NCBI GenBank assembly: GCA_023381015.1
Contig: JAMCTE010000012.1
Location: forward strand, 40,760 to 104,759
Direction of reading: 5' to 3'
Origin: Patescibacteria group bacterium
GTDB lineage: Bacteria > Patescibacteriota > Microgenomatia > UBA1406 > GWC2-37-13
DNA: 64,000 bases
Shown here: positions 44,181 to 59,260 of the stretch, in pieces
Layout of the letters: every line of letters starts with the position of its first letter
Numbering within the stretch: position 1 is the stretch's first letter
Position numbers and translations under genes: made by a program
Notes under the pieces: generated by a model
What the model was told of the DNA's origin: nothing
The model's input: only the letters and a program-made list of their open reading frames with translations
Database searches by the model: none

Positions 44181-44984
44181 TCAACCTATTCTGTATTTAT
44201 TGATTTCCTCTTTTAATTTATTCGCTTCTCTTCTCGGATTGTCGGAAAAAATTATGCTTCGCGACGAGTTGACAATCAATCCTTGGCCCTTTCTATTCAA
44301 TCCTGCCTTCATTGTCGCCTCGACGTCTCCTCCCTGGGCACCGATGCCGGGAACAAGAAACCACATGCCTTGACCGGTTATTTTTCTTACTTGCCTAAGT
44401 TCGTCGGGATATGTAGCCCCAACTACCAAAAGACAGTTGTCGTTTCTGTTCCACTTTTTGGCAACGTTTTCGGCGACAATTTTGTACAATTCTCTACCCT
44501 TGACCTTCAAATCCTGAAATTCTCCGGCTCCTGAATTGGAAGTCCGGCAAAGGATAATGATTCCTTTGTCCTTCATCTCTAGGAATGGGCCTATAGCCTC
44601 TGACCCTAAGTAAGGATGTAGGGTGACGGCATCGGCACCGAGGTATGTGAAAACAAATTGAACATATCCTTTGTTCGTATTGCCGATATCAGCCCTTTTG
44701 GCATCGATGATGATCGGAATTTCCGGATATTTCTTTTTCAGATAGTCACAGGTGTCTTTAAGAGCCTTTACTCCTTCATATCCTATAGATTCGTAGAAGG
44801 CAACGTTCAACTTATATGAACAAACCAAGTCGTGGGTAGCTTCAATGATGGATTTATTGAACGAAAACTGCTTCGACTCGCCGTAGCCCATTTGGCGAAG
44901 GCGGTTTGAATCACTATCCAATCCAACACAAAGTAGCGAATTATTCTTTCTCACAATCTTCTCAAGCTTTTCCTGGAATCTCAT
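44181..44984 (-). CDS. pyrF: Orotidine 5'-phosphate decarboxylase, type 2
   Basis: About 267 residues from ATG 44984 (MRFQEKLEKI); the upstream extension would overlap the SGNH gene and is not conserved. The catalytic charged cluster is IIDAKRADIGNT with Asp94, Lys96 and Asp99, in the type-2 form. LCVGLDSD and WFLVPGIGAQGGD are the phosphate and ring-binding parts. It converts OMP to UMP, the last step of the pathway encoded around it. Confidence 0.93.
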   Translation of the reverse strand: MRFQEKLEKIVRKNNSLLCVGLDSDSNRLRQMGYGESKQFSFNKSIIEATHDLVCSYKLNVAFYESIGYEGVKALKDTCDYLKKKYPEIPIIIDAKRADIGNTNKGYVQFVFTYLGADAVTLHPYLGSEAIGPFLEMKDKGIIILCRTSNSGAGEFQDLKVKGRELYKIVAENVAKKWNRNDNCLLVVGATYPDELRQVRKITGQGMWFLVPGIGAQGGDVEATMKAGLNRKGQGLIVNSSRSIIFSDNPRREANKLKEEINKYRIG

Positions 44985-45015
44985 ATTTATTTTCACTTTA
45001 ATTAAATAAAGTGGG

Positions 45016-45645
45016 TCAAATGATAAATTTGTCAATAAAAGGCTTTATCAAATCAAACATTTTTTCATGACCCAATGAGTTTGGATGAAGGCCGTCGTAG
45101 ATATATCTCAAGAAGTCCTTTGTCTCAAAAACTTCGAATAACCTGACAAAAGGAACTTTCCTCTCATCACAGACTGATCTGACAATGTCATCAAATTTCT
45201 TGATCCTTTTGTTCAAAAACGCCTCTTTGCCCCATGGATTGGTCCTTTTTTCGTCAACCGGAGTATAGCCGACAAACGAAACCTTGTTAGAATATTTTTT
45301 GGTAATTTCGCAGATCTTTTCCACGTTTTTCCTAAACTGAGCCTCAGAAGTAAACGGTTTTTTGTCAGAAAACCTTAGTCTTGAATCATTAGTCCCTGCA
45401 CTGACCAAGATGACAGTTTCCGGATAAAATAGCCTGGCTTTGATCTCGGGTTCGATTCTTTTTAGAAGATCGCTCGTCATATCTCCGGGAATGCCCAAGT
45501 TAAAAACATGGCCATGAAGTTCGCTCTGGTTTGCTAGAATTTTTTTGATGACGTGAAGCCTAAGTCTATTTGCCCAACCGCCCAATACGTCCCAGTTGCC
45601 ATGGGTGGTGCTGGCGCCAAATATAAGGATTTGGAACTTCTTCAT
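45016..45645 (-). CDS. SGNH/GDSL-type hydrolase
   Basis: 209 residues. The four SGNH blocks are visible: Ser12 in IFGASTTHGNW, Gly in NLGIPGD, Asn in AGTNDSR and the Asp/His pair in YDGLHPNSLGHE. No signal peptide, so it is cytoplasmic. The family cleaves esters (lipid, acyl or acetyl groups). It sits between a pyrE-like gene (7 bp) and pyrF inside the pyrimidine run, without an obvious biochemical reason. Confidence 0.88.
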   Translation of the reverse strand: MKKFQILIFGASTTHGNWDVLGGWANRLRLHVIKKILANQSELHGHVFNLGIPGDMTSDLLKRIEPEIKARLFYPETVILVSAGTNDSRLRFSDKKPFTSEAQFRKNVEKICEITKKYSNKVSFVGYTPVDEKRTNPWGKEAFLNKRIKKFDDIVRSVCDERKVPFVRLFEVFETKDFLRYIYDGLHPNSLGHEKMFDLIKPFIDKFII

Positions 45646-45652
45646 TAATTAA

Positions 45653-46267
45653 TTATATATAAGAAGCAATTCTTTTACTTTCAAAATATTTTTTTGCGAC
45701 GTTAAGCTGAATCGGTGAGATTTTCCCGGTTTCAAACAGTCTGACGAATATATCATTTAAAGAGATCAAAGCTTCACAATTGAAGCCTCTTTTACGGATC
45801 TCCTCTATTCTCCCCGCTACCCTATCGACCAAAACATATAGTCCAACGACCGTTAATCCGCTACCTTCCAATCTTCCTAAAAGTTGCAAACTATCTATCG
45901 GATCTCTCACTTCTTCGTCGACAACGATTACTTTTTGACCGGGTAAATAACTTCCTTCGATCAATTTCTCCATTCCATATTTTTTTCTTTCTCCTCTTAT
46001 AAAAATCATCGGCCAGTTATATTTTAAAGAAATTGTCGTTGCTAAAGGAATATCCGTATATGGACCGGCGATCAGATCAAAAGTTTCCTTTTTTATTGAA
46101 GACCAAAGCAGCTTGGCTGTATATTGGAGAATTTTTGGCTGGGAAGTAAGATATTGCAACTTGATGGCATAAGGCATCCTGTTTTCATTTTTACCTTTTG
46201 GAAGATCAATCGCTCCCGATTGATAAAGTAAATCGATTAGCTTTTGTTTTGATCTTATGTCTATCAT
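45653..46267 (-). CDS. Divergent PyrE paralogue with altered PRPP and catalytic loops
   Basis: 204 residues, clearly homologous to the two pyrE genes upstream (PLATTISLKYNWPMIFIRGE, then KKYGMEKLIEGSYLPGQ). The PRPP motif is VIVVDEEVRDPIDS instead of VVVIDDVISDGAS, so the second acidic residue is Glu and the small Gly/Ser end is lost. The catalytic R-K-E has become R-G-E. Likely inactive in orotate transfer, or specific for another base, or a regulatory or structural partner of the other two. It lies 2 bp after the second pyrE. Confidence 0.75.
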   Translation of the reverse strand: MIDIRSKQKLIDLLYQSGAIDLPKGKNENRMPYAIKLQYLTSQPKILQYTAKLLWSSIKKETFDLIAGPYTDIPLATTISLKYNWPMIFIRGERKKYGMEKLIEGSYLPGQKVIVVDEEVRDPIDSLQLLGRLEGSGLTVVGLYVLVDRVAGRIEEIRKRGFNCEALISLNDIFVRLFETGKISPIQLNVAKKYFESKRIASYI

Positions 46268-46269
46268 AT

Positions 46270-46932
46270 TTATTTACTGGCAATTTTCTGCTTTTGTGAA
46301 TTTTTACTTTCAACATTTGATGATGTCTTGATTATGAACTTTTGGCACTCTGTAAGCTGTTCATAACTTATTCTTCCGTGTCTATATAAAACTTCCAAAA
46401 CTTCTTCCATATTGGTAATCGCAATGCAGTGATAACCTTTTTTCTGTACTGCCTGTACTCCGCCCTGTCCCCGATCCAAAAGCACGACGACTTGACTGAC
46501 CACGAGCCCGACATCCTCAATCGGTTTAATCGTCTCAAATTTTGAAGCCCCATCTGAAATAACGTCGTCGATGACCACGACATATTGTCCTTTGTGATAG
46601 ACCCCCTCTATTAGTTTCTTTTTTCCATAGTCTTTAGCTTCTTTTCTCATAAAAATGAGCGGCCTGTTATATCGCAAAGAAATCGCCGTTGAAATAGGCA
46701 ATGCCGCATAAGGAACGCCGGCAATAAGATCAAACGGTTTTAGCCTTATTTTTTCCCACAGCACGTCGCTGACTAACTCCAAAAGGTGAGGGAAAGTAAC
46801 CAACATACGAAGATCAATATAGTAAGGACTCATTATTCCGGATTTAAGCTTGAATTGGCCAAAATCAATTATACGTACTTCATGAAGATCAAGAATCATC
46901 TTTTCTTTCATCTTAGAGTCAAAGATGTTCAT
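46270..46932 (-). CDS. pyrE: Orotate phosphoribosyltransferase, copy 2
   Basis: 220 residues. KSGIMSPYYIDLRMLV and GVPYAALPISTAIS bind orotate and phosphate, FMRKEAKDYGKKKLIEG is the flexible catalytic loop and VVVIDDVISDGASK the PRPP loop, all intact. The pattern resembles the OPRT half of eukaryotic UMP synthase. It joins orotate to PRPP to give OMP for PyrF. A 20-residue polar C-terminal tail is not shared with its neighbours. Confidence 0.88.
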   Translation of the reverse strand: MNIFDSKMKEKMILDLHEVRIIDFGQFKLKSGIMSPYYIDLRMLVTFPHLLELVSDVLWEKIRLKPFDLIAGVPYAALPISTAISLRYNRPLIFMRKEAKDYGKKKLIEGVYHKGQYVVVIDDVISDGASKFETIKPIEDVGLVVSQVVVLLDRGQGGVQAVQKKGYHCIAITNMEEVLEVLYRHGRISYEQLTECQKFIIKTSSNVESKNSQKQKIASK

Positions 46933-46984
46933 ATATTTTGGATTAGCGTATTTTAACAGTATTTTTTTGTTTTTTCAAGGTCTT

Positions 46985-47608
46985 TTATACGTGACCTGTT
47001 TTCATAAACTTTACAGTTTCTTCGACTTGTTTTTTGGAAATCAATCCATGGCTTGACAGTATCTTCGTCACCTCTGACATATTGTATATTGAAGTCAAGC
47101 GACAACCATATACTTCATTTCTCATGTCGGTTTGTTTCCGCCTGTCAAGAAGCACTAAAACATCTGTCACCTTTAGTCCGTTATTGTTTAAAACCCCTAA
47201 AGTTTCTTCTTTGCTTTTACCGTCGGAAATAACATCATCAAGTAAAACTGCCGTCTGACCTGACCGAAAAACACCTTCGATTTCTTTCTTTTTTCCGTAA
47301 GACTTTTGTTCTTTGCGGACAAACACCATCGGTCGATTATATTTATAAGAAATAATTGTCGCCAAAGGAATGGCTGCATACGGAACACCAACCAAGACGT
47401 CAAACTGCATCAACCGAAGCTCTTCCCAAAAAACATCGGCAACGACTTCCAAAAGATAAGGATAAGAAACCAAAAGCCTTAAATCCAAATAATAAGGGGA
47501 GATTATTCCGGATTTTAATTTGAAACGGCCAAATTCAATGGCTTTGATCCGAAAAAGTTCCAAGACCAAGCGTTCTTTTGATGGCAAATCTTTATATATG
47601 CTTTTCAT
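46985..47608 (-). CDS. pyrE: Orotate phosphoribosyltransferase, copy 1
   Basis: 207 residues. KSGIISPYYLDLRLLV, GVPYAAIPLATIIS, FVRKEQKSYGKKKEIEG and AVLLDDVISDGKSK are all intact, so this is a complete OPRT. It differs from copy 2 throughout, which suggests an old duplication rather than a recent one. It follows the aspartase gene by 5 bp and is 52 bp upstream of copy 2. It may form a heteromer with copy 2 or with the degenerate third copy. Confidence 0.88.
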   Translation of the reverse strand: MKSIYKDLPSKERLVLELFRIKAIEFGRFKLKSGIISPYYLDLRLLVSYPYLLEVVADVFWEELRLMQFDVLVGVPYAAIPLATIISYKYNRPMVFVRKEQKSYGKKKEIEGVFRSGQTAVLLDDVISDGKSKEETLGVLNNNGLKVTDVLVLLDRRKQTDMRNEVYGCRLTSIYNMSEVTKILSSHGLISKKQVEETVKFMKTGHV

Positions 47609-47613
47609 AAAAA

Positions 47614-48900
47614 TTAAATTAATAACTTATTGAATTCTTTCTCTGTCAGCAACTTCTTTTCCAAAACAACCTGCCTTAGTGTTTTTCCTGTCGCAACGGC
47701 TTCTTTGACGATCTTGGATACCGTATCGTAACCCAATTTAGGCGATAGCAAAGTCGCATAGGCGGTCGACTTCTCCAACAACTCAAGACATCTTTTTTCG
47801 TTGACGACGATTTTTTTGATGCCGCGGTCGGCAAATAACCTAAGGCCTGAATCGACGATTTTCAACATGGTAATCAACGAGTCGGCAATCGCCGGAAGCA
47901 TCACCCCGAGCTCTAGGTGGGAATTTTCGGCGGCGTGATGGATCGTCGTATTCCTGCCGTCGACCTGGAAATAGATCTGGTTCATCGTCTCGCAGATAAC
48001 CGGATTGACTTTGCCCGGCATGATTGAGGACCCTTGCTGCATTTCCTGAAAGGAAATCTCCCCTATTCCTCCCTTTGGTCCGCTGCTCATGAATCTCAAG
48101 TCGGCCGCCATCTTGCTGATATCGAGACACAAAAGGTTGACCGAAGAGGAAAGCTGGCAAAAATCCGTGTCTGAAGACGTACCTGACATGAGATTTTTTA
48201 ACGGTTTCAATTCTTTTATCCCGGCGATTTTTTTCAATTCCGCATAAACCGTCTCCAAGTAAACTTTTGGAGCATTAATCGAATTCCCGACCGCCGTCCC
48301 TCCCAAATTCAATTCGTAGAAATATTTCAAAGAATCCTCGATTCTTTTTTTATCCCTTTTTAGAATGTCGGCATAAGATTGGAATTCCGCTCCCAGGGTC
48401 GTCGGAACGGCATCCTGCATGTGCGTCCTGCCGAGCTTCTTGACGCTTTTGCACTCCTTCGCCCGTGCCTCGATCACTTTAATTAAATAAAGTAGGTTTT
48501 GCAAAAGCCTCTTCGTCAATTTGATGCCGGCGATCTTTAGCGCCGACGGATTGACGTCGTTCGTTGACTGGCTGGCGTTGACCTGGTCGTTCGGATGAAC
48601 TCCGGCAAGATTGGCGACCACTTCGTTGACGTTCATGTTGACTGATGTCCCGGCTCCTCCGTGAAGACCTTTGACGACAAACTGACCGTTGTATTTTCCG
48701 GACAAGATATCGTCGCAGGCTTTGATTATTTTCCTGGATTGTTCCGGGGAAATTTTTCCGGCTTTGAAGTTGGCGACAGCCGCGGCTTTCTTGATCAAGA
48801 CAACAGCCTGATAAAACTCCAGATGAGCCAAAGGATAATCAAACGGGAAGTTCTCAATCGCAGCTTTGGTTTGCGGGCCGTATAAAATCCTGTTTTGCAT
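47614..48900 (-). CDS. aspA: Aspartate ammonia-lyase (aspartase/fumarase superfamily)
   Basis: 428 residues, about 40 shorter than E. coli AspA, mostly at the N-terminus. ENFPFD, GGAGTSVNMNVNEVVAN, NASQSTNDVNPSA, GRTHMQDAVPTTLGAEF and the catalytic loop GSSIMPGKVNPVICE fit aspartase better than class II fumarase (Q-S-T-N-D). It would convert aspartate to fumarate and ammonia. Inside a pyrimidine cluster this could feed ammonia towards carbamoyl phosphate and fumarate to the FrdAB-like pair. Fumarase or another superfamily activity cannot be excluded. Confidence 0.75.
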   Translation of the reverse strand: MQNRILYGPQTKAAIENFPFDYPLAHLEFYQAVVLIKKAAAVANFKAGKISPEQSRKIIKACDDILSGKYNGQFVVKGLHGGAGTSVNMNVNEVVANLAGVHPNDQVNASQSTNDVNPSALKIAGIKLTKRLLQNLLYLIKVIEARAKECKSVKKLGRTHMQDAVPTTLGAEFQSYADILKRDKKRIEDSLKYFYELNLGGTAVGNSINAPKVYLETVYAELKKIAGIKELKPLKNLMSGTSSDTDFCQLSSSVNLLCLDISKMAADLRFMSSGPKGGIGEISFQEMQQGSSIMPGKVNPVICETMNQIYFQVDGRNTTIHHAAENSHLELGVMLPAIADSLITMLKIVDSGLRLFADRGIKKIVVNEKRCLELLEKSTAYATLLSPKLGYDTVSKIVKEAVATGKTLRQVVLEKKLLTEKEFNKLLI

Positions 48901-49001: not shown

Positions 49002-50366
49002 TTAATGGTTAATCCATTTACCATTTGCCCTACTAACTATTTTTCCATTATTATAGACTAATTCTCCCCTGACAAATGTCATGATTGGTCTGCCCAATAA
49101 TTTCATTCCCTCGAAAGCCGACCAACCGCATTTGGAAAACAAGTCTTCCTTTTTTACAGTCCAGTGATTTTTAGTATCGATGATCGAAAAATCAGCATCA
49201 TTCCCGACCCTTATTTCACCTTTTCCTTTTAAATTAAAGATTTCTGCTGGTCTCTTTGAGGAATGAATGGCAATTCTTCTTAATCCTTCTTCTAAAGTAT
49301 TTTTTCCGAATTTTTTTAGCCAGCCGGTGATCGCCGCCGGCATGGCTTCCTGGATATCAGGAGTGCCGGACTGGGCTTTCCACACATCTGGCTGGCTCTT
49401 TGTTTCCCTCGGATGAGGAGTGTGCTCCGAACACAAAACATCTATCCTTCCGTCGTGAAAAAGCTGCCAGACCGCCTGTTGATTTTCCGGCGATCGGACA
49501 GCCGGCGCCACTTTGATCTTGTTGCCGTATTTTTTATAGTCGTCGGTATTAAAAGACAGCTGATAACCGACTAATTCCCCATAAACGGTTTGCCCCCTGG
49601 TTTTTGCGGCGGCGACCAACGCAAATTCCTCCGGAGTTGACATGTGAAGGATATAAAGGCGGAAACCCTTGTATCCCGACGCTAGAGCGATAGCCCGGGC
49701 GGCGGCCGAAGCGACAACCGTTGTCGGGCGGATTTCACTCCACAAAGCCGCATCGCTCCTGCCGGTTTTTTTGAACTCCCGGTTATAATAATTGATTAAC
49801 CACTGGTCTTCGGCGTGGACGGCGAGAAGGATCTTCCTTTTTGAACAAATGTCCATTACTTTATTTAAAGTTAAATCATCAGGAATGGTAGTCGGCACCG
49901 TTTCATGACCGGCCATAAAGACTTTCACTCCGACAATATCTTTGGCGCTGACTTTTTTTAACTCGTCTAATTTGTCGGATGAAACTCCCATGAAAAATGC
50001 ATAGTCGATGAAGCTTCTTTTCGGATAAATCTTGTTTATTTTATCCTTTAATAAGGAGACTGTGACCGTCGGCGGCTTGGTATTGGGCATGTCAAGAATA
50101 GACGTAAATCCGCCCGCTGCGGCCGCCGACGTACCGTGCGGCACGTCTTCGCGGTCTTCAAAACCGGGTTCCCTCAAATGTCCGTGAACCTCGACCAGTC
50201 CCGGCATAAGATATCGGCCTTTAGCATCGATGACTTCGCCTTTAAAGCCAGCGGCTTTCTCCTGAGTTATTTTTTCAATCTTTCCTTTTTCATCTATGAC
50301 AACGTTTCCCAAAAATACTTTTTCCGGCGTCACGATTCTTGCATTTTTGACGAGTCGTTTCTTCAT
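49002..50366 (-). CDS. pyrC: Dihydroorotase, class I
   Basis: 454 residues. Metal-binding EVHGHLREPG has His61 and His63, then GVKVF (bridging lysine), AVHAEDQ, ILHMSTPEE and CSEHTPHPRE. The last differs from the usual T-D-H-A-P-H in having Glu for the catalytic aspartate. It closes carbamoyl-aspartate to dihydroorotate in the cytoplasm. It begins 5 bp after the iron-sulfur gene, so FrdB-like and PyrC production are coupled. Hydantoinase or allantoinase relatives are possible, but context favours PyrC. Confidence 0.85.
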   Translation of the reverse strand: MKKRLVKNARIVTPEKVFLGNVVIDEKGKIEKITQEKAAGFKGEVIDAKGRYLMPGLVEVHGHLREPGFEDREDVPHGTSAAAAGGFTSILDMPNTKPPTVTVSLLKDKINKIYPKRSFIDYAFFMGVSSDKLDELKKVSAKDIVGVKVFMAGHETVPTTIPDDLTLNKVMDICSKRKILLAVHAEDQWLINYYNREFKKTGRSDAALWSEIRPTTVVASAAARAIALASGYKGFRLYILHMSTPEEFALVAAAKTRGQTVYGELVGYQLSFNTDDYKKYGNKIKVAPAVRSPENQQAVWQLFHDGRIDVLCSEHTPHPRETKSQPDVWKAQSGTPDIQEAMPAAITGWLKKFGKNTLEEGLRRIAIHSSKRPAEIFNLKGKGEIRVGNDADFSIIDTKNHWTVKKEDLFSKCGWSAFEGMKLLGRPIMTFVRGELVYNNGKIVSRANGKWINH

Positions 50367-50371
50367 ATGGA

Positions 50372-51030
50372 CTAGGCTTTAACAATATAGATTGCTTTAT
50401 CGATGGGAATTCCCCGCGGACAGATTTTTGACAGTCTTTCCCCCAGTTCGACCGTGTAACCTTTTACTTTGCTTTTGACGGAAACGGTTTTTCTTTTCAG
50501 GCCGTCGCGCGGATCGGTGACGAATCTGGCGATTTTAACCAGAGACATCGGATCCAGATGATCGCCTTTTTCCATGATTTCCGGCGCACCGGCGATGCAG
50601 CAACCGCATTCGATGCACTTCCTGAAAGGCTTGGACTCGTTGGCCTTCGCTCTTGTCACCCGGACGTTGTGAATCTTACTCAGGAACGGCTTGATCTTCA
50701 GATATCGATCGAGGACCGGTTCGAGATTAACGATCAAATCTTTTTCGATGGGAAAATTGGCTAGAGGCTCTATGACCTGTTTTTTTCAGACTGCCGTCGA
50801 TCTATCGAACATGACAGCACCGGCCTGCCGTTCAGCATCACTCCGCAAGTGCCGCAGATCCCCTGACGGCATTCGTAACGGAAAGCCAGCGTTGCGTCAA
50901 GTTCATTGTGAATATAGTTGACTACGTCCAATACGGTCATTCCTTTTAGGAACGGAACCGAATACTCCTGGTATTTGGGTTTGAGTTTCTTTTTGGAATT
51001 ATATCTAAGGACGGCAAATTTGATATTCAT
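50372..51030 (-). CDS. Fumarate reductase/succinate dehydrogenase-like iron-sulfur subunit, split by a -1 frameshift
   Basis: ATG 51030 opens an 86-codon frame with the [2Fe-2S] cysteines Cys54, Cys59, Cys62 and Cys74 (YECRQGICGTCGVML, then GRPVLSC). It would stop at 50770. A -1 shift at A-AAA-AAC (50785-50779) joins it to QVIEPLANFPIEKDLIVNLE, normal SdhB sequence, giving about 219 residues to 50372. The C-terminal half has C-x2-C-x-C-C and one more Cys (KICPRGI), fewer than standard FrdB. It is next to the flavoprotein gene. Either programmed shifting, a mutation, or an assembly error in the seven-A run. Confidence 0.7.
50779..50785 (-). other. Candidate -1 ribosomal slippery heptamer
   Basis: A-AAA-AAC in the zero frame of the iron-sulfur gene, followed three codons later (AGG TCA TAG) by the zero-frame stop at 50770-50772. 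It fits the X-XXY-YYZ rule for simultaneous slippage of two tRNAs. Only a weak inverted repeat (TAGAG-C-CTCTA) follows. Confidence 0.45.
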
Positions 51031-51032
51031 GA

Positions 51033-52709
51033 TTATCTCTCTACCTCCAATAAACTGGTAACTATCCTGCCTTTTTCTTTGGAAACGGCGATGTTTTTCT
51101 CCCATTCCGGAAGCATCTTGGGATAATCTGTCCGGCTGTGGGCTCCCCGGCTTTCCTTGCGGATCAGCCCGGCTTCGATGACGGCTTGGGCCGTCTCAAG
51201 CATGTTGCAGATTTCCAGGCAATCCTGGAGGTCGCGATTCCTTTCGGTAATCACTGTTCTCGTTTTCATTTTTCCGGCGTCTTTCATTAACTTTTCCACT
51301 TTATTTTTAGCCTGAAGCATGCTTTTTTCATCCTTAAAAATGCCAACGTTATCCCACATGGTTTTTTTCAAGGCTTTTTCGATCTTTTGTGGCTCTATAC
51401 CGGTTTTTCTTATCAAAAAGGAATTGACTCTTTTTATCTCGTTCCTGATTTCTTTTTCATCGAGGTGAGTAGACTTGACGGTTTTCGAATAACGGATCGC
51501 ACCGATCCCGGCCCTCCGGCCGAAAACCTGTCCTTCGGCGATCGAATTGCCGCCCAAGCGGTTGGCGCCGTGGACGCCTCCCGCGACCTCTCCGGGGCAA
51601 AGCTGATCGACATGGTTGGAACGGCCCCACTCGTCGATTTTGACGCCGCCCATCATGTGGTGCATCGACGGATAGATCTTCATCGGCTCCTTCGAGATGT
51701 CGACGCCGACGTTTTTGTACTGCTCGTAAACGTCAGGTATCACCTCGAGGATTTTTTCCTTGGGCCAATGGTTGACTTCGAGATAGACACAGTTGCCGTC
51801 AACGCCGTTGCCGGCTGCGACTTCAAGATAGATGGCGCGGCTTACCTCGTCACGTTTCGCCAACTCCATCTCTTTCGGATAGTACTTACTCATGAACCTT
51901 TCCCCTTTTTTGTTTTTGAGTAGTCCGCCGTGGGCTCTGGTTTTTTCCGTCACCAAGACTCCCCGGCTCGACGGAGTCTGCGCCATCCCGGTCGGATGGA
52001 ACTGGACCATCTCCATGTCGATCAGCTTTGCCCCGGCACCAAGCGCCATCGCGTAGCCGTCTCCGGTATTGGACGCCGCGTTGGTCGTCACTTCATACAT
52101 TCGCCCGGCGCCTCCGGTAGCTAAAATGACAGCTTTTGCCTGAAAAACGACGAACTCATCGGTCTTCAGGTTTATTCCGATCGCCCCGCAGACTTTTTCC
52201 TTGTCTTTCAGCAGTTTGCTGATGAAAAACTCGTCGGTATATTTGATTCCCAGTTTTCTGGCTTGATCGACCAATCCCTGCATCATCTCCCGTCCGGTAT
52301 AGTCGCCGACACAGACGTTCAAGGGATACTTTTGTTTTGGCCCGGCCCAGACATAAAAATCTCCGCTGTCCAACCGGTCGTAAATGACCCCGTAGTCTTC
52401 CAAGTCGTAGATTCTCGCCGGCATCTCCTCGCCGAAAATCCGGCACAGTTTATAGTTGCTGATATTGTAGCCGCCTTCGATCGTTATTCTGGCGTGAAAC
52501 TCCCCCGTCGCCGGAGCGACCATGGCGGCGTTCATCCCGCCCATCGCCATACCGGTGTGGGCACAACCAAGGACTTCCTTGCCGAGAAGATAGACGTCAG
52601 CGCCTCTTTTTTTGACTTCGATCGCCGCTCTTAGCCCTGCTCCACCGGCGCCGATAACAAGAATGTCTGTCTTGATGGTTTTATAAGAAGAAGAAACCGT
52701 AGATTTCAT
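51033..52709 (-). CDS. Fumarate reductase/succinate dehydrogenase-like flavoprotein
   Basis: 558 residues. FAD motif DILVIGAGGAGLRAA (15-29), covalent-FAD histidine His51 in CAHTGMAMGG, substrate His238 in QFHPTG, proton-path Glu255 and Arg258 in VTEKTRAHGG, His350/351 in SMHHMMGG and Arg384 in HGANRLGGNS. All core Frd/Sdh catalytic positions are kept, although R-G-E-G-G reads R-A-H-G-G. No membrane anchor subunits follow. It lies between carB and pyrC, where a pyrD would be expected, so a role in dihydroorotate oxidation linked to fumarate is a reasonable hypothesis. Confidence 0.82.
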   Translation of the reverse strand: MKSTVSSSYKTIKTDILVIGAGGAGLRAAIEVKKRGADVYLLGKEVLGCAHTGMAMGGMNAAMVAPATGEFHARITIEGGYNISNYKLCRIFGEEMPARIYDLEDYGVIYDRLDSGDFYVWAGPKQKYPLNVCVGDYTGREMMQGLVDQARKLGIKYTDEFFISKLLKDKEKVCGAIGINLKTDEFVVFQAKAVILATGGAGRMYEVTTNAASNTGDGYAMALGAGAKLIDMEMVQFHPTGMAQTPSSRGVLVTEKTRAHGGLLKNKKGERFMSKYYPKEMELAKRDEVSRAIYLEVAAGNGVDGNCVYLEVNHWPKEKILEVIPDVYEQYKNVGVDISKEPMKIYPSMHHMMGGVKIDEWGRSNHVDQLCPGEVAGGVHGANRLGGNSIAEGQVFGRRAGIGAIRYSKTVKSTHLDEKEIRNEIKRVNSFLIRKTGIEPQKIEKALKKTMWDNVGIFKDEKSMLQAKNKVEKLMKDAGKMKTRTVITERNRDLQDCLEICNMLETAQAVIEAGLIRKESRGAHSRTDYPKMLPEWEKNIAVSKEKGRIVTSLLEVER

Positions 52710-52770
52710 TATGGGTAATAATATCGAAAAAGTTTTTGTTTAGCAAGAGATATTTTATTCAAAAAAAATA

Positions 52771-53838
52771 TTATTTTCTAATTATGTATGAAAAATAACC
52801 CAATTTATCATAACCTTGTTCGCGATGAAATCTAGCAGCAGTTTCGTAAGCTGTGACTTCCTCTGCTTTTTCTGGATTGGCCTTTAATGAAAATGTTTCC
52901 TCTGTGATTTGCATTGGGTTCGGTTGCTCCTTTTTCCCGTTAAAACCCCTCCATAGAGCCTCACCTTCTAATAAAGAAACATCTAAAATACCACCAAACT
53001 TACTGACTAGCTTTTCAAGTTCTCTTTTCATTTCAATTTCTCCCTCAGGAGTAATTCTTGAATATCCAATACCAATTATTACATCTCCATGCACTGATTT
53101 CTCAAGAGCTTGTCCGGCAAATGACAAAGTTAACGCTAAACCGTTTTCTCCTCCATCCCTCATAACAGCCATGCTAGCGCCCTTTGCTTTTAAGGCAAAT
53201 GGAGGATTGGCAATATATAAAGTATTTCCAGGCGAATCTGAGTCTGGAATACCATCTTTTGTTATATCACGAAGCTCAACCGATACTCTAGGATTTTTTT
53301 CTAGAGGACTAAATTTTTGTATATCGTTTATTTCAAGATTTGCTTTTGCTAAATTAACTGCCCTTGGATTGATATCGGATAACGATGCTTTTTCCGCAAA
53401 TTCATTAGCGATCATTGGTATACCTGAGTGACCGCCGCCACAAAATGGGTCGATGGCTAAACTAAATTTATTTTCACGCCTTTCTACTTCACCAGAAACT
53501 AACCTTGATAAAGTTAATGCTTCGTCAAAATAAGGATAAACCTCCATCTCTCCTTCAGCAAGTGGTGGTTTTTCAGGATCTGTAAGGTAAATAAAATTTC
53601 CTCTTTTTTGAATTTCGTATTTTGTTGAATCAAAATCATTTTCTCTCTCATTAAGTTTATATTTGGAAATAAAAAAATGCAGCAAATCATATGGGTAGAG
53701 ACGTTCTGAAGGCTTTTTATACCATTCTTTCTGAAAAAGCGGGCTGTTAAAAATCAAGCTCTGAGCTTTAAATATTTTTGCTTTGCTTTCTGTAAGTATC
53801 ACAGCAGGTATTATATCATGGCTATAGGACAATTTCAA
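52771..53838 (-). CDS. SAM-dependent methyltransferase with N-P-P-F motif
   Basis: 355 residues. SAM motif I is AIDPFCGGGHSGIPM (128-142) and the catalytic motif IV is IANPPFALKAKG (209-220), the pattern of N-methyltransferases acting on amino groups of bases or glutamine. The N-terminal 100 residues are unlike known families. It separates carB from the Frd-like genes. Its base composition is richer in A and T than the surrounding pyr genes, suggesting a later insertion. The target is unknown. Confidence 0.75.
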   Translation of the reverse strand: MKLSYSHDIIPAVILTESKAKIFKAQSLIFNSPLFQKEWYKKPSERLYPYDLLHFFISKYKLNERENDFDSTKYEIQKRGNFIYLTDPEKPPLAEGEMEVYPYFDEALTLSRLVSGEVERRENKFSLAIDPFCGGGHSGIPMIANEFAEKASLSDINPRAVNLAKANLEINDIQKFSPLEKNPRVSVELRDITKDGIPDSDSPGNTLYIANPPFALKAKGASMAVMRDGGENGLALTLSFAGQALEKSVHGDVIIGIGYSRITPEGEIEMKRELEKLVSKFGGILDVSLLEGEALWRGFNGKKEQPNPMQITEETFSLKANPEKAEEVTAYETAARFHREQGYDKLGYFSYIIRK

Positions 53839-53860
53839 TTAAAAGACACTATTTGAAAGG

Positions 53861-56800
53861 TTATTCTAAATACTCTTCCCAACTCTTTATTTTCAAGTCC
53901 TTTATTCTATATTTTTCCAAGGCGTTGACAAAAAGGCGGGATGAGTTCAAGTCGGTAAACAGGCTGATGTTGTGGTCGATCGCCGCCCGGCGGATCAGAT
54001 AACCGTCGGTCTTGAACTCGGACGCCACCGGATTGCCGTCGCCTTTTTCGCTCAAATTAATGACCAGTGATACTTTTTTTTGTTCAATGATATCGATAAC
54101 GTTAGGTCTTCGCCTCTCATAAACTTTACTCACTAATTTTGTCCTTACTCCTTTTGAGTTTAAAAACTTATGGGTATGGTTGGTGGCATAAAGTTCAAAT
54201 CCTAGATTTTTCAGCTTCCAGATCGATTCGGCAAAACGGAGCTTGTTTTCCTCCCCTCCGATCGTCACCAAGGCTGATTTCTTGTCCAGAGACAAACCGG
54301 TTGAGATCAACGATTTCAGATAGGCTTCCTCGGCAGTGTCGCCGAAACAAGCGACTTCCCCGGTCGAAGACATCTCCACCCGCAAAACCGGGTCGGCCCC
54401 CTCCAGCCTGGCGAAGGAAAACTGCGGCGCCTTGACCGCGACGTAGGCCGGATAATCGATTTGGTACTCCTTCGCTTTCCCGAAAAAAGCGTCGACCGTC
54501 ACGGCGGCGAAATTGACTCCGGTCACTTTAGAAATGAAGGGGAAAGTCCTGGAAGCTCTTAAATTTAACTCGATCACGTATACCTTATTGTCTTTGACCA
54601 TATATTGAATATTAAAAGGACCGTTTATGCTCAAAGCTTTGGTTAAATTTTGTGCTATCTCCACCATCTTGACGCCGCTATAGTATCTGACCCGCTCGGC
54701 CGGATAGACGATGGTGGCGTCTCCCGAATGGACGCCGGCGTGCTCGACATGGTTAGATAAAGCATAGACTTTTAGTTTACCGCCTTGGGCAACGCCGTCC
54801 AGTTCGACTTCCCTGGCATTGGTCATGTATTTTGAAATTGTCACCGGATGCTTTTTGTTGATTTCAACCGCCCTTTTTACGAAAGATTTTAACTCCGCCT
54901 CATCATAACAAAGATTCATCGCTAGGCCAGACAAAACATACGAAGGCCTGATAAGAACCGGGTAACCGACCTCTTTGGCGAATTTGAGTGCCGATCCCAT
55001 ATCGGTAAAGTTCTTCCACAACGGTTGAAGGATGCCGAGTCGGTCGAGCAGGTCGGAAAATTTATTCCGGTTTTCCGCCAAATCGATATTTCCCGCCTTG
55101 GTTCCCAGTATTTTCACTCCATAATTGTTGAGCCTCGTACTCAAATTGTTGGGCGTCTGCCCGCCGACGGAAAGGATTATCGACGACGCTTTTTCAAACT
55201 CGTAGATGTCGCTCACCCGCTCGAAAGTCAATTCCTCAAAGTATAGCCGGTCGCTCATGTCGTAGTCTGTCGAAACGGTTTCCGGATTACAGTTGACGAC
55301 GATCGACTGCTTTTTGTACCTTTTCAAGTTTTGGGCGACGTTGACGCTGCTCCAGTCAAATTCGACCGAAGAGCCGATCCGGTAAGGCCCGCTTCCCAAA
55401 ACCATTATCCCCCCCTGGCCGATTGGTTTAACGTCATGGTGGCTCCCCCAATAAGTTGTATATAAATAGTTGGTCTTGGCGGGAAACTCGCCTGCCAAAG
55501 TATCGATGGCAAAAACCGAAGGAGTGATTTTATTCTTGATTCTGAAACTGCGGACTTCCAATTCTGTTTTTCCCAAGGCTTCTCCGATCCGCCTATCGGA
55601 AAAACCTAGGCGTTTTAAATTCAACAATTGGTCACGTTGCAGGGAACGGTCGCGGCCGTTACCCACGGATGAAACCATTTCCTTTTCCGCATCGACAATG
55701 TTTTTCAGCCGATACAAAAACCATTTATCGACTCCCGTCTCCTGGTAAATCTTGTCGATGGAAAAACCTTTTTTTATGCCCGCGGTGATGGCGAATAGCC
55801 TCCGTGGCGTCGCCGACTTTATGTAGTGCCAGATTTCTTTTTCGTTGGCGAACCGGTTTTCGATGACGCCGTGGACGCCGATATCAAGCATCCTGGTTGC
55901 CTTTTGGATCGCCTCCTCGAACGTCCTGCCGATCGCCATCACCTCACCGACAGACTTCATCGAACTGCCGATGACCTCTTCGGCTCCGCGGAACTTCTCG
56001 ATGTCCCAACGGGGAATTTTGACGACCAAATAGTCAAGGGCCGGTTCGAATGCCGCCTGGGTGACCCTGGTGATTTGGTTGATTATTCTCGTCAACGGTT
56101 TGCCCAAGATTAGTTTTGCAGCAACGTAAGCCAACGGGTAACCGGTCGCCTTGGAAGCCAGCGCCGAAGAACGCGACAGTCGGGCGTTAACCTCAATAAC
56201 GTAATAATCAATGGCGGGTGTCGAGGGAAAAGAACCCGATATAGGCCCCGTCGATTCCGGATGGGGGTTCAGAGCGAACTGGACATTACATTCACCAACT
56301 ATTCCCAGGCTCCTGACGATCTCGATCGACTTCTGCCTCAAAAAGTGGTACTCATAATTGGTCAGGGTCTGGCTCGGGGCAACGACGATCGATTCGCCGG
56401 TATGGATCCCTAAGGGATCGAAGTTTTCCATGTTGCAGACGGTGACGCAGTTGTCGAAATTATCCCTGACAACCTCATATTCTATCTCTTTATAATGGTG
56501 TAAGTATTTCTCGACCAGAATTTGCGGGGAAAACGCCAGGGCGGCTTCGGCAATCGTCATGAATTCCTTTTCGGTATGAGCGACGCCGGACTTTTGTCCA
56601 CCCAAGGCAAACCCGGCCCGGATCATGACCGGAAGTTTAAGCTTCCTGGCGATTTTTAGTCCTTCTTTGGTCGAATTGACGGCGTGGCTGGCAGGAGTGG
56701 AAACGTTGATTTTTTTGAGATGGTCGGCAAATAACTGTCTATCCTCCGAGGTCACGATGGCGGAAACCGGCGTGCCTAGAACTTGGACGTGATACTTTTT

Positions 56801-57109
56801 GAAAACGCCTTTTTTGTAAAGGTCCATGCCGCAGTTTAATGCCGTCTGCCCTCCGAAAGACAAGGCAATGGCGTCCGGATTCTCTTTGATAATCACCTGT
56901 TCTATGAATTCGGGATTGATCGGCAGGAAATAAACTTTGTCCGCCATCGCTTTTGAAGTCTGAATCGTGGCGATATTGGGATTGACAAGGATCGTCTTTA
57001 TCCCCTCTTCCCTGAAGGCTTTAATCGCTTGGGATCCTGAATAGTCAAACTCGCCGGCTTGACCGATTTTCAGCGCTCCAGAGCCTAGGAGCAAAATCTT
57101 TTTTATCAT
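53861..57109 (-). CDS. carB: Carbamoyl-phosphate synthase large subunit
   Basis: About 1082 residues from ATG 57109 (MIKKILLLGSG), which overlaps the carA stop by 4 bp (ATGA); an upstream start would lie inside carA. Two ATP-grasp halves begin at GQAGEFDYSGSQA and GPYRIGSSVEFDWSSVN, with VIEVNARLSRSSALASKATG and IELNLRASRTFPFISKVTG as paired metal-binding segments. The C-terminal methylglyoxal-synthase-like regulatory domain (about 940-1082) is present. Makes carbamoyl phosphate from bicarbonate, ATP and ammonia delivered by CarA. Confidence 0.95.
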   Translation of the reverse strand: MIKKILLLGSGALKIGQAGEFDYSGSQAIKAFREEGIKTILVNPNIATIQTSKAMADKVYFLPINPEFIEQVIIKENPDAIALSFGGQTALNCGMDLYKKGVFKKYHVQVLGTPVSAIVTSEDRQLFADHLKKINVSTPASHAVNSTKEGLKIARKLKLPVMIRAGFALGGQKSGVAHTEKEFMTIAEAALAFSPQILVEKYLHHYKEIEYEVVRDNFDNCVTVCNMENFDPLGIHTGESIVVAPSQTLTNYEYHFLRQKSIEIVRSLGIVGECNVQFALNPHPESTGPISGSFPSTPAIDYYVIEVNARLSRSSALASKATGYPLAYVAAKLILGKPLTRIINQITRVTQAAFEPALDYLVVKIPRWDIEKFRGAEEVIGSSMKSVGEVMAIGRTFEEAIQKATRMLDIGVHGVIENRFANEKEIWHYIKSATPRRLFAITAGIKKGFSIDKIYQETGVDKWFLYRLKNIVDAEKEMVSSVGNGRDRSLQRDQLLNLKRLGFSDRRIGEALGKTELEVRSFRIKNKITPSVFAIDTLAGEFPAKTNYLYTTYWGSHHDVKPIGQGGIMVLGSGPYRIGSSVEFDWSSVNVAQNLKRYKKQSIVVNCNPETVSTDYDMSDRLYFEELTFERVSDIYEFEKASSIILSVGGQTPNNLSTRLNNYGVKILGTKAGNIDLAENRNKFSDLLDRLGILQPLWKNFTDMGSALKFAKEVGYPVLIRPSYVLSGLAMNLCYDEAELKSFVKRAVEINKKHPVTISKYMTNAREVELDGVAQGGKLKVYALSNHVEHAGVHSGDATIVYPAERVRYYSGVKMVEIAQNLTKALSINGPFNIQYMVKDNKVYVIELNLRASRTFPFISKVTGVNFAAVTVDAFFGKAKEYQIDYPAYVAVKAPQFSFARLEGADPVLRVEMSSTGEVACFGDTAEEAYLKSLISTGLSLDKKSALVTIGGEENKLRFAESIWKLKNLGFELYATNHTHKFLNSKGVRTKLVSKVYERRRPNVIDIIEQKKVSLVINLSEKGDGNPVASEFKTDGYLIRRAAIDHNISLFTDLNSSRLFVNALEKYRIKDLKIKSWEEYLE

Positions 57110-58155
57110 AAAGTCTGTAAAAATTTGTCGAATATCCATTCGGTATCCATCGGGCCGGGACAGGCTTCGGGATGGAATTGGACCGACATAAATGGCAAAT
57201 TATTATGGATGATTCCTTCGTTGGTCTTGTCGTTGGCATTGACAAACCAGGGTTTGAAGCCGGGAGGAATTTTTCCGATGGCAAAACCATGGTTTTGCGT
57301 CGTCACGTAACAGCGGTTGTTGGTTTGATCGATACAGGGTTGGTTCTGGCCGCGGTGTCCAAACTTCAATTTATAAGTCTCTCCTCCTGTGGCTAAAGCC
57401 AGGATTTGACTTCCAAGACAGATTCCCAAAATTGGGATTTTTTTTGCTACGGCTTGCTTCACGGTTTCGATGGTTGCCCGGCACATTTTAGGATCACCTG
57501 GACCATTGGAAATAATTATACCGTCAAACCCCTCTTTTAAACTGAAAATGTCGAAATCCCAAGGAACGACAATTACCTGGGCACCTCTATTAACCAAGTT
57601 TCTAATAATGTTTTCCTTAACTCCACAATCAATTAATACTATAGACATTTTTTTATATTGCTCTATCGCTCTTAATCCCACCTTACGGGTGGTCTTGACC
57701 GACACTTTTTCCATCAAATTAACAAGGTTTGGATCGAAAAATTCAATGTTTTTTTTGAAGACTATTTTCGCCAATTGAGCGCCTTGATCCCTGATCTTTT
57801 GCGTCAAAAACCTTGTGTCATCAATAATCAGTCCGGGGATTTTTTCCTCTTTCAACCAAGAGGATAAGGTTTTTTTGCTTTGGAAGTGGGACGGCGTATC
57901 GACGTATTGGGAGACAATCAAACCTGAGATATGGATCCGGGAAGATTCCCAGTATTTTTTTTCCGGGACGCCGTAGTTACCGATAATCGGATATGTAGTC
58001 ACCAGTATCTGCCCTTCGTATGAGGGATCGGTCAACGATTCAGGATACCCGGTCATGCCGGTTGAAAAGACAAGCTCCCCGGCGACCGATTCCTCATGCC
58101 CAAAACTTCTTCCCTTTATTTTTGTTCCATCCTTGAGAATTAGATTTCCAAGCAT
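57106..58155 (-). CDS. carA: Carbamoyl-phosphate synthase small (glutaminase) subunit
   Basis: 349 residues. The N-terminal CarA domain (GHEESVAGELVFSTGMTGYP) is followed by a class I glutamine amidotransferase: nucleophile Cys246 in LGICLGSQIL and the His/Glu pair in VQFHPEACPGPMDTE. It frees ammonia from glutamine and passes it to CarB. It ends with TGA overlapping the carB start, evidence that TGA is a normal stop here. Confidence 0.95.
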   Translation of the reverse strand: MLGNLILKDGTKIKGRSFGHEESVAGELVFSTGMTGYPESLTDPSYEGQILVTTYPIIGNYGVPEKKYWESSRIHISGLIVSQYVDTPSHFQSKKTLSSWLKEEKIPGLIIDDTRFLTQKIRDQGAQLAKIVFKKNIEFFDPNLVNLMEKVSVKTTRKVGLRAIEQYKKMSIVLIDCGVKENIIRNLVNRGAQVIVVPWDFDIFSLKEGFDGIIISNGPGDPKMCRATIETVKQAVAKKIPILGICLGSQILALATGGETYKLKFGHRGQNQPCIDQTNNRCYVTTQNHGFAIGKIPPGFKPWFVNANDKTNEGIIHNNLPFMSVQFHPEACPGPMDTEWIFDKFLQTL

Positions 58156-58246
58156 AAAAAAATATCAAATAAAAATATCAAATTTTTAATCAATAAAAAA
58201 TAAATAAATATTTAATATTTGTTATTTGATATTGAATTTTTATTTC
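58156..58246. other. A/T-rich spacer with inverted repeat between pyrB and carA
   Basis: About 90 bp of almost pure A and T with AAATATCAAAT-like units on one side and TTATTTGATATTGAA on the other, able to fold into an imperfect stem. No promoter or terminator that I could place with confidence. Confidence 0.4.
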
Positions 58247-59260
58247 TTATTTATTATTTAAAATCAATTTAAAAAGTGTCATCCTCACATACATGCCGTT
58301 TTTTGGCTCGGTCGTCAGATAAACCGCCCTTTTGTCAGCATCAACGGCCGTTTCTATCTCACCGACTCTAGGCAATGGATGCATCAGCAGCGTATTTTTT
58401 CCGGCTTTTCCATTCACCAATTTTTTCGTAAGGATGAAACTTAACTTCAATCTTTCGTAAACTCTCTTGTCGCTGAATCTTTCCTTTTGCACCCTGGTCC
58501 AGTACCAAAAATTGCAGTCAGGCGGAATATCTTTTGTCGATTCTATTTCTATCAATTTTATGCCTCTTTCCGAATAAAGCTTGAATTCTTCCCTGGATAG
58601 CCTCAACTCTTTCGGTGACAGTAAATATATGGTATTTCCGGGAAAAATCGACAATCCCCTGATGACCGAGTGGACGGTCCTTCCGTTTAGCATGTCGCCT
58701 GCCATCAGACCTTTGAGCCCATTCAGTTTTTTGAATTTTTCCCAGATCGTAAACATGTCGAGGAGGGCCTGAGTCGGATGCTCACCGATGCCGTCACCGG
58801 CGTTGATGACAGGAATCTCGACGGCTTCGGCAACCTTTTCCAAGGTTCCCTTGATTGGATGACGCATCACGATGACGTCACAGTACTGTTCGAGCATTTT
58901 GGCCATATCTTCAATCGATTCCCCTTTAACGGCCGAAGACGTAACTAAGGGATTCTGATGCTCGATTGTCTGACCGCCTAATCTCTTGAATGCTGCCGTA
59001 TTTGAAGAAAAAGTCCTGGTTGACGGTTCGAAAAAAACTAGCGCCGCGACCTTGCCTTTTAATATCTCCAACAATTCTTTTGGGTTACTTTTTTTTAGTT
59101 CTTCGGTTTCCTTAAACAATCTTATTATTGAGGTTTTATCGAATTGGTCTAAAGAAATCACATCTTTGCCCTCAAAAGGATTTGAAAAATTTCTAAAAAT
59201 ATCCTTAATCAATCGATAAAGTTGGCTGTAGGAAGTAATGCTTTTTATCGGTTTTAACAT
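58247..59260 (-). CDS. pyrB: Aspartate carbamoyltransferase catalytic subunit
   Basis: 337 residues. Carbamoyl-phosphate loop FFEPSTRT (76-83), the mobile-loop Ser/Lys around SSAVKGES (Lys112), HPTQALLDM (161-169) and HPLPRVGE. It joins carbamoyl phosphate to aspartate. The N-terminus is about 30 residues longer than E. coli PyrB. No pyrI regulatory chain is visible, so it is probably not allosteric in the E. coli way. Expression seems to be set by the terminator located 14 nt before the ATG. Confidence 0.93.
   Translation of the reverse strand: MLKPIKSITSYSQLYRLIKDIFRNFSNPFEGKDVISLDQFDKTSIIRLFKETEELKKSNPKELLEILKGKVAALVFFEPSTRTFSSNTAAFKRLGGQTIEHQNPLVTSSAVKGESIEDMAKMLEQYCDVIVMRHPIKGTLEKVAEAVEIPVINAGDGIGEHPTQALLDMFTIWEKFKKLNGLKGLMAGDMLNGRTVHSVIRGLSIFPGNTIYLLSPKELRLSREEFKLYSERGIKLIEIESTKDIPPDCNFWYWTRVQKERFSDKRVYERLKLSFILTKKLVNGKAGKNTLLMHPLPRVGEIETAVDADKRAVYLTTEPKNGMYVRMTLFKLILNNK

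Follow-up and report, generated by a model that had tools for sequence, protein, structure and literature searches.

A complex II-type flavoprotein encoded beside pyrC as the probable dihydroorotate dehydrogenase of several Microgenomatia

To our knowledge, all known dihydroorotate dehydrogenases (DHODHs) are PyrD-type flavoproteins, PyrD being a triosephosphate isomerase (TIM) barrel with flavin mononucleotide (FMN). L-Aspartate oxidase (NadB) is a single-subunit enzyme of the fumarate reductase flavoprotein (FrdA) type, which acts on the aspartate moiety and is reoxidised by fumarate or oxygen. The DHODH class scheme in PMC8520639 agrees with the all-PyrD view, and the same paper describes fumarate as acceptor of class 1A PyrD. 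Here we analyse a pyrimidine cluster in a stretch of 64 000 nucleotides (the window) from a Patescibacteria assembly, in which the genes for an FrdA-type flavoprotein and its iron–sulphur partner FrdB stand between carB and pyrC and no gene for PyrD is recognised. We propose that FrdA, alone or together with FrdB, is the cell's dihydroorotate dehydrogenase, which would be a fourth and non-homologous type of this enzyme, and put the probability of this assignment at about 0.8.

Contig C12, which holds the window, belongs to a Roizmanbacteria-like (Patescibacteria) assembly of 1.06 Mb in 38 contigs that is 84.5% complete. The genes pyrB, carA, carB, frdA, frdB and pyrC, an aspartase-like gene, three pyrE-like genes and pyrF form one cluster, all on the minus strand. 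The frdA gene (51033–52709) encodes a flavoprotein of the Frd/Sdh/NadB family, the predicted dihydroorotate dehydrogenase. Its Pfam scan gave PF00890 (270 bits) and PF02910 (81 bits), the FAD_binding_2 and Succ_DH_flav_C domains of the complex II flavoprotein superfamily; PF01180, the PyrD family, was not among the domains found. The closest FrdA relatives with a named source are from Roizmanbacteria and Gottesmanbacteria.

The first-pass annotation of this DNA had reported that neither PyrD nor PyrK is recognisable in the cluster. For PyrD this was confirmed, as a search of the whole assembly with PF01180 gave no match, with all 14 control genomes positive. For PyrK, the search of the assembly with PF10418 was likewise empty, yet this short model detects only 6 of the 14 controls. 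Since the assembly is incomplete, the pyrD question has to be decided from relatives. Taking a score of 490 bits or more as membership of the FrdA clade (the copy of genome G407 being split across two contigs), we found members in 10 of 373 genomes of the class; a scan of 83 genomes of the order added G067 and G021, which makes 12 carriers. A scan of 210 genomes across the phylum found no clade member besides that of the window's own genome; the other matches were 24–47% identical and scored at most 268.5 bits. PF01180 was unmatched in six carriers (G000, 84% complete; G007, 94%; G261, 96%; G152, 96%; G170, 95%; G100, 98%), and the sole match in G407 (96% complete) had E = 2.9e-4. Altogether, seven of the 12 carriers have no PF01180 match better than this value, and six of these seven are 94–98% complete. 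The genome G006 (79% complete), excluded from the 12, has a 50-residue end of FrdA at a contig edge, followed by frdB, a 268-residue open reading frame (ORF) and pyrC, and no PF01180 match.

The distribution of PyrD was also compared among genomes that carry carA and pyrC. In a set listed by hand, carA (about 160 bits or more) was present in 101 genomes, any pyrC match in 99, and both in 87. Among these 87, PF01180 at E ≤ 1e-10, counted genome-wide and with fusion proteins included, was found in 75 of the 77 without FrdA and in three of the 10 with FrdA (G025, G012 and G137). Fisher's test gives p = 6.9e-7, a nominal value because the genomes are related.

A linkage of the Frd-like pair to pyrC in relatives, which the first-pass annotation had suggested should be surveyed, is borne out: frdA adjoins pyrC, with at most frdB between them, in 11 of the 12 carriers, and in the twelfth (G137) the contig stops inside frdA. 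The frdB gene lies between the two in G000, G025, G067, G021, G261 and G152, and is missing from this position in G007, G012, G170, G100 and G407. As frdA and pyrC thus adjoin without it in five genomes, the idea of a replacement does not depend on frdB. Two nearly complete genomes illustrate the arrangement. In G100 (98%), carA, carB, pyrB, pyrC, frdA, pyrF and pyrE share one locus, in which pyrC and frdA run opposite to the other genes; in G261 (96%), one contig carries carB, pyrB, frdA, frdB, pyrC, pyrF and a pyrE-like gene that falls short of the pyrE cut-offs, and carA is on a separate contig. PF01180 has no match in either.

Within the genus of the window, the same slot is occupied by different genes. 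G028 has pyrC, a class-1 PyrD (TIGR01037, 320 bits, cut-off 270) and a PyrK-like gene (PF10418, 22.8 bits, slightly under the cut-off). G020, G026 and G027 have pyrC, a divergent PyrD of about 360 residues and an aspartase-like gene, and G000 and G025 have the FrdA–FrdB pair, a long pyrC and the aspartase. The long dihydroorotase of the window (pyrC, 49002–50366) scores 272 bits with TIGR00857 (cut-off 279); relatives of it above 400 bits occur in eight of the 373 genomes, every one an FrdA-clade genome. The divergent PyrD, found at L163:4900-5973 and also in L156 and L162, is itself unusual: the L163 protein reaches 69 bits with PF01180 and, for each of the 13 NCBIfam models that it matches, stays under the cut-off.

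The FrdA clade is monophyletic (131 sequences, support 1.0). The first-pass annotation had described the Frd catalytic residues as intact, and this applies to the clade as a whole: H238, T254, R258, R286, H350 and R384 are present in all 131 sequences and E255 in 130 of them. The surroundings of the active site are clade-specific. For M56, W121, L130, N131, C133 and K256, the rounded frequency is 1.0 within the clade against 0.0 among 78 sequences of the outgroup; K125 and E288 are found in no more than 5% of these outgroup sequences. The counterpart of F119 of SdhA differs with the alignment, being W121 in one and G123 in another. The clade extends to Ktedonobacteria (P0116, P0235 and others), where the database names are thiol-driven fumarate reductase or L-aspartate oxidase. 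Thermosporothrix hazakensis has a clade member (P0116), and a protein of Ktedonosporobacter rubrisoli is 75% identical to it.

For FrdB, 109 matches were collected, of which 101 are close (P0123–P0223); the 96 of these with at least 200 residues were used, the rest being fragments or outgroup-like. The four cysteines of the 2Fe–2S cluster and the four of the 4Fe–4S cluster are kept in 96 of 96 clade sequences. The C..C..C...C motif, which supplies a 3Fe–4S ligand, is found in none of the 96; it is present in all three outgroup sequences used and in all eight archaeal and bacterial FrdB sequences of an aligned comparison set. As the 3Fe–4S cluster of complex II faces quinone, the lack of the motif makes a quinone-free, soluble role of the clade FrdB likely. 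Two natural FrdA–FrdB fusions (P0070 and P0073) are likewise devoid of the motif, and their existence indicates that the two proteins belong together. In the six genomes with frdB at this position, no gene, and so no candidate for a membrane anchor, was seen between it and pyrC; no profile-based or genome-wide search for anchors was made.

Taken together, the linkage to pyrC, the lack of a credible PyrD in seven of 12 carriers, the exchange within the genus, the retained catalytic residues, the clade-specific surroundings of the active site and the missing 3Fe–4S motif of FrdB make dihydroorotate oxidation the most likely function as judged from sequence. The substrate would suit such a site. 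Dihydroorotate can be regarded as cyclised N-carbamoyl-aspartate, a cyclic ureide of aspartate, and in orotate the C6 carboxylate and the C4 carbonyl would stand trans across the C5=C6 bond like the carboxylates of fumarate; because of this fumarate-like unit, an Frd/NadB-type site should accept it. Hydride would pass from C6 to flavin adenine dinucleotide (FAD), which is likely covalently bound, and the C5 proton to the arginine relay R286–E255–R258, yielding orotate in a reaction that would mirror succinate oxidation. As electron acceptor we infer fumarate, oxygen or a carrier. Where FrdB is present, electrons would leave via the 2Fe–2S and 4Fe–4S clusters to a soluble carrier; where it is missing, fumarate might take the electrons straight from the flavin, as it does in L-aspartate oxidase and class 1A PyrD, or oxygen might do so. 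Fumarate could come from the aspartase-like neighbour where there is one, or from purine synthesis. Somewhat less firmly than the assignment itself, we consider it probable that the clade represents a fourth DHODH class on the complex II fold, working as FrdA alone or as FrdAB and in its simplest form a dihydroorotate:fumarate oxidoreductase, which took the place of PyrD in several lineages of Microgenomatia and is perhaps active in free-living Ktedonobacteria.

Several results weigh against this assignment, and three other explanations have to be considered. All dicarboxylate-binding and catalytic Frd residues are kept, which is compatible with a plain fumarate reductase or succinate oxidase. 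FrdAB could accordingly be a soluble succinate dehydrogenase/fumarate reductase that, together with the aspartase, makes aspartate for PyrB from C4 acids, with another protein serving as dihydroorotate dehydrogenase. The position of an aspartase after pyrC in G000, G025 and G067 is in favour of this, but dihydroorotate oxidation would then be left without a known enzyme in seven of the 12 genomes. Moreover, close aspartase relatives (above 300 bits) occur in six of 20 genomes (G000, G025, G067, G020, G026 and G027; a 38% identical relative is found in G137). The genomes with FrdA and no frdB beside it (G007, G012, G100, G170 and G407) have only distant lyases of 19–50 bits, whereas in G020, G026 and G027 the close aspartase stands beside PyrD. 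The aspartase therefore does not track FrdA, and fumarate fed by it is an option in one lineage rather than a general one. We regard this explanation as unlikely, although it is the strongest of the three. The aspartase-like gene of the window (47614–48900; PF00206; best NCBIfam model NF008909, aspartate ammonia-lyase, 469 bits, cut-off 510) is common to the FrdA- and PyrD-type pyrimidine loci of the genus, and could supply PyrB with aspartate or the oxidoreductase with fumarate.

Alternatively, the step might be performed by a PyrD that escaped detection or by a fusion of VKOR and PyrD domains, FrdA being an auxiliary redox partner. In G025, G012 and G021 the only strong PF01180 match is such a fusion protein of about 520 residues, encoded remote from the pyrimidine locus, and it could act as dihydroorotate dehydrogenase there. 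Weak partial matches exist besides the fusion in G012 (2.8e-4) and G021 (3.0e-5, inside a guaB-like ORF), and the assemblies differ in how much of the genome they lack. However, none of G007, G100, G152, G170, G261 and G407, which are 94–98% complete, gives a PF01180 match better than 2.9e-4, while the same search recovers PyrD in 75 of 77 comparison genomes. Neither is the fusion tied to the pyrimidine pathway: among the matches listed, 22 of 39 genomes with a frame of fusion length (499–581 residues) have neither carA nor pyrC. The fusions in this count were called by frame length; few frames were read and one was scanned for VKOR. That one, L022:4565-6136 of G025, has both domains by Pfam (PF07884 and PF01180), and the same layout was seen by reading in L023, L024, L027, L031, L032 and L033. 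We rate this second explanation as improbable, below the first. Apart from this question, VKOR–PyrD fusions of about 520 residues are common in Microgenomatia and combine PyrD, outside the pathway, with a membrane domain of the thiol oxidase type; none is named in the paper titles among the literature matches listed. That FrdA is an L-aspartate oxidase located in the cluster by chance is very improbable, as it scores 322.7 bits (window) and 373 bits (G007) against a TIGR00551 cut-off of 452.75 and, in 11 of the 12 carriers, shows linkage to pyrC.

Returning to dihydroorotate oxidation by FrdA, a difficulty is that FrdA is accompanied by an ordinary class-1 PyrD in G067 and G137. The pattern that the first-pass annotation had named as refuting, FrdAB beside a normal pyrD, is thus seen in two of 12 carriers, in both with frdA on a small and possibly misbinned contig. 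The FrdA contig of G067 has a GC content of 0.389, above the 0.305–0.352 of five of the ten sampled contigs (PyrD contig, 0.32), and may for this reason be misbinned. In G137 the full pyrimidine operon including PyrD is on contig C1 of 291 kb and the FrdA contig has 8.2 kb; the carA on the latter is nearer to the window's carA than the C1 copy (72% versus 53% identity). This contig, too, may be misbinned. Both genomes nevertheless stand as results against the assignment, and the replacement of PyrD is supported by linkage, absence and in-genus exchange but not uniformly so. In addition, two genomes with carA and pyrC but no FrdA, G211 (85% complete) and G376 (88%), likewise give no PF01180 match at E ≤ 1e-10. 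Identity matrices over up to 11 genomes gave r = 0.45 for FrdA with PyrC, not above the 0.49 for FrdA with PyrB. The data on gene context and PyrD cover the 12 carriers; most of the 131 clade sequences, and those from Ktedonobacteria, were considered as proteins alone.

The reading frames of the window itself are also disturbed. The first-pass annotation had described a complete flavoprotein and its iron–sulphur partner; the partner is not complete in the window, where frdB is split over two frames. The N-terminal part with the 2Fe–2S domain is at 50770–51030 (PF13085 in ORF 50770–51105, ATG at 51030), and the C-terminal part, with the 4Fe–4S ligands and without the 3Fe–4S motif, is at 50372–50737 and matches the C-terminal part of the NCBIfam model dhsB. 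The relative P0162 is an intact FrdB, a protein of 219 residues that is identical to the window FrdB in its first 75 and last 121 residues (121/121); its source carries the mark of the window's own proteins, so that it may originate from the same population. In FrdA, residues 366–373 differ from those of P0003, which is 94% identical. The disturbances are at 50738–50805 (frdB) and, apparently, 51591–51614 (frdA), and intact relatives of both are in the database. Faulty assembly or a private mutation is the probable cause of the frdB break, and the two disturbances together suggest such local events rather than loss of the genes in the lineage.

Of the other genes in the cluster, pyrB (aspartate carbamoyltransferase, 58247–59260; TIGR00670, 280 bits, cut-off 237) is followed by carA (carbamoyl-phosphate synthase small chain, 57106–58155; TIGR01368, 448 bits, cut-off 307) and carB (large chain, 53861–57139; PF02786 and partners). 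Between carB and frdA is a methyltransferase-like ORF (52771–53838) with weak NCBIfam methyltransferase matches, which is absent from the corresponding gap of G025 (L135). Beyond the aspartase-like gene follow pyrE (orotate phosphoribosyltransferase, 46985–47608; TIGR00336, 132 bits, cut-off 107), a second pyrE paralogue (46270–46932; 141 bits with the same model and cut-off), a third pyrE-like paralogue recognised by alignment (45653–46267), and pyrF (orotidine-5'-phosphate decarboxylase, 44181–45035; TIGR02127, 241 bits, cut-off 111). The run of pyrB, carA, carB and pyrC with the flavoprotein was correctly described before; pyrE and pyrF are real but lie outside 49002–59260, to which the run had been assigned, and the methyltransferase-like and aspartase-like genes had not been listed. 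The tandem of three pyrE-like genes (45653–47608) is also found in G025, G028 and G006. The third gene has a degenerate phosphoribosyl pyrophosphate (PRPP) motif, VDEEVRDP or close to it, in four of four loci, and its product may be a non-catalytic partner.

If the assignment is true, the clade would constitute a new enzyme class of known fold, unrelated to PyrD, for a near-universal step of pyrimidine synthesis. It would fill an annotation gap in genomes where pyrD seems to be missing, and would show the Frd/NadB scaffold gaining a new substrate. The occurrence of clade members in named species of Ktedonobacteria could open the way to a direct test. Among the matches listed, we found no report of an Frd-type dihydroorotate dehydrogenase in the open-access literature.

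Among known enzymes, PyrD of classes 1A, 1B and 2 (PF01180) is the one whose place in pathway and operon FrdA shares, but FrdA has no PF01180 domain and has the fold of complex II flavoproteins. From FrdA and SdhA (e.g. 1kf6, 7d6v) the clade differs by its active-site surround, its linkage to pyrC and an FrdB without the 3Fe–4S motif; this last feature also sets it apart from respiratory complex II, the quinone-linked succinate:quinone and quinol:fumarate reductases (SQR/QFR), whose 3Fe–4S ligands the clade FrdB lacks. NadB provides a model for an FrdA that works without FrdB, but FrdA scores below the NadB cut-off and has pyrimidine genes as neighbours. The thiol:fumarate reductase subunit TfrA (coenzyme M/coenzyme B; NF004900) is the best NCBIfam model of FrdA and the database name of some clade members; the scores of 561.5 bits (window) and 571.5 bits (G007) are, however, under its equivalog cut-off of 718, and the clade FrdB has about 220 residues in comparison with the 488 positions of the TfrB model.

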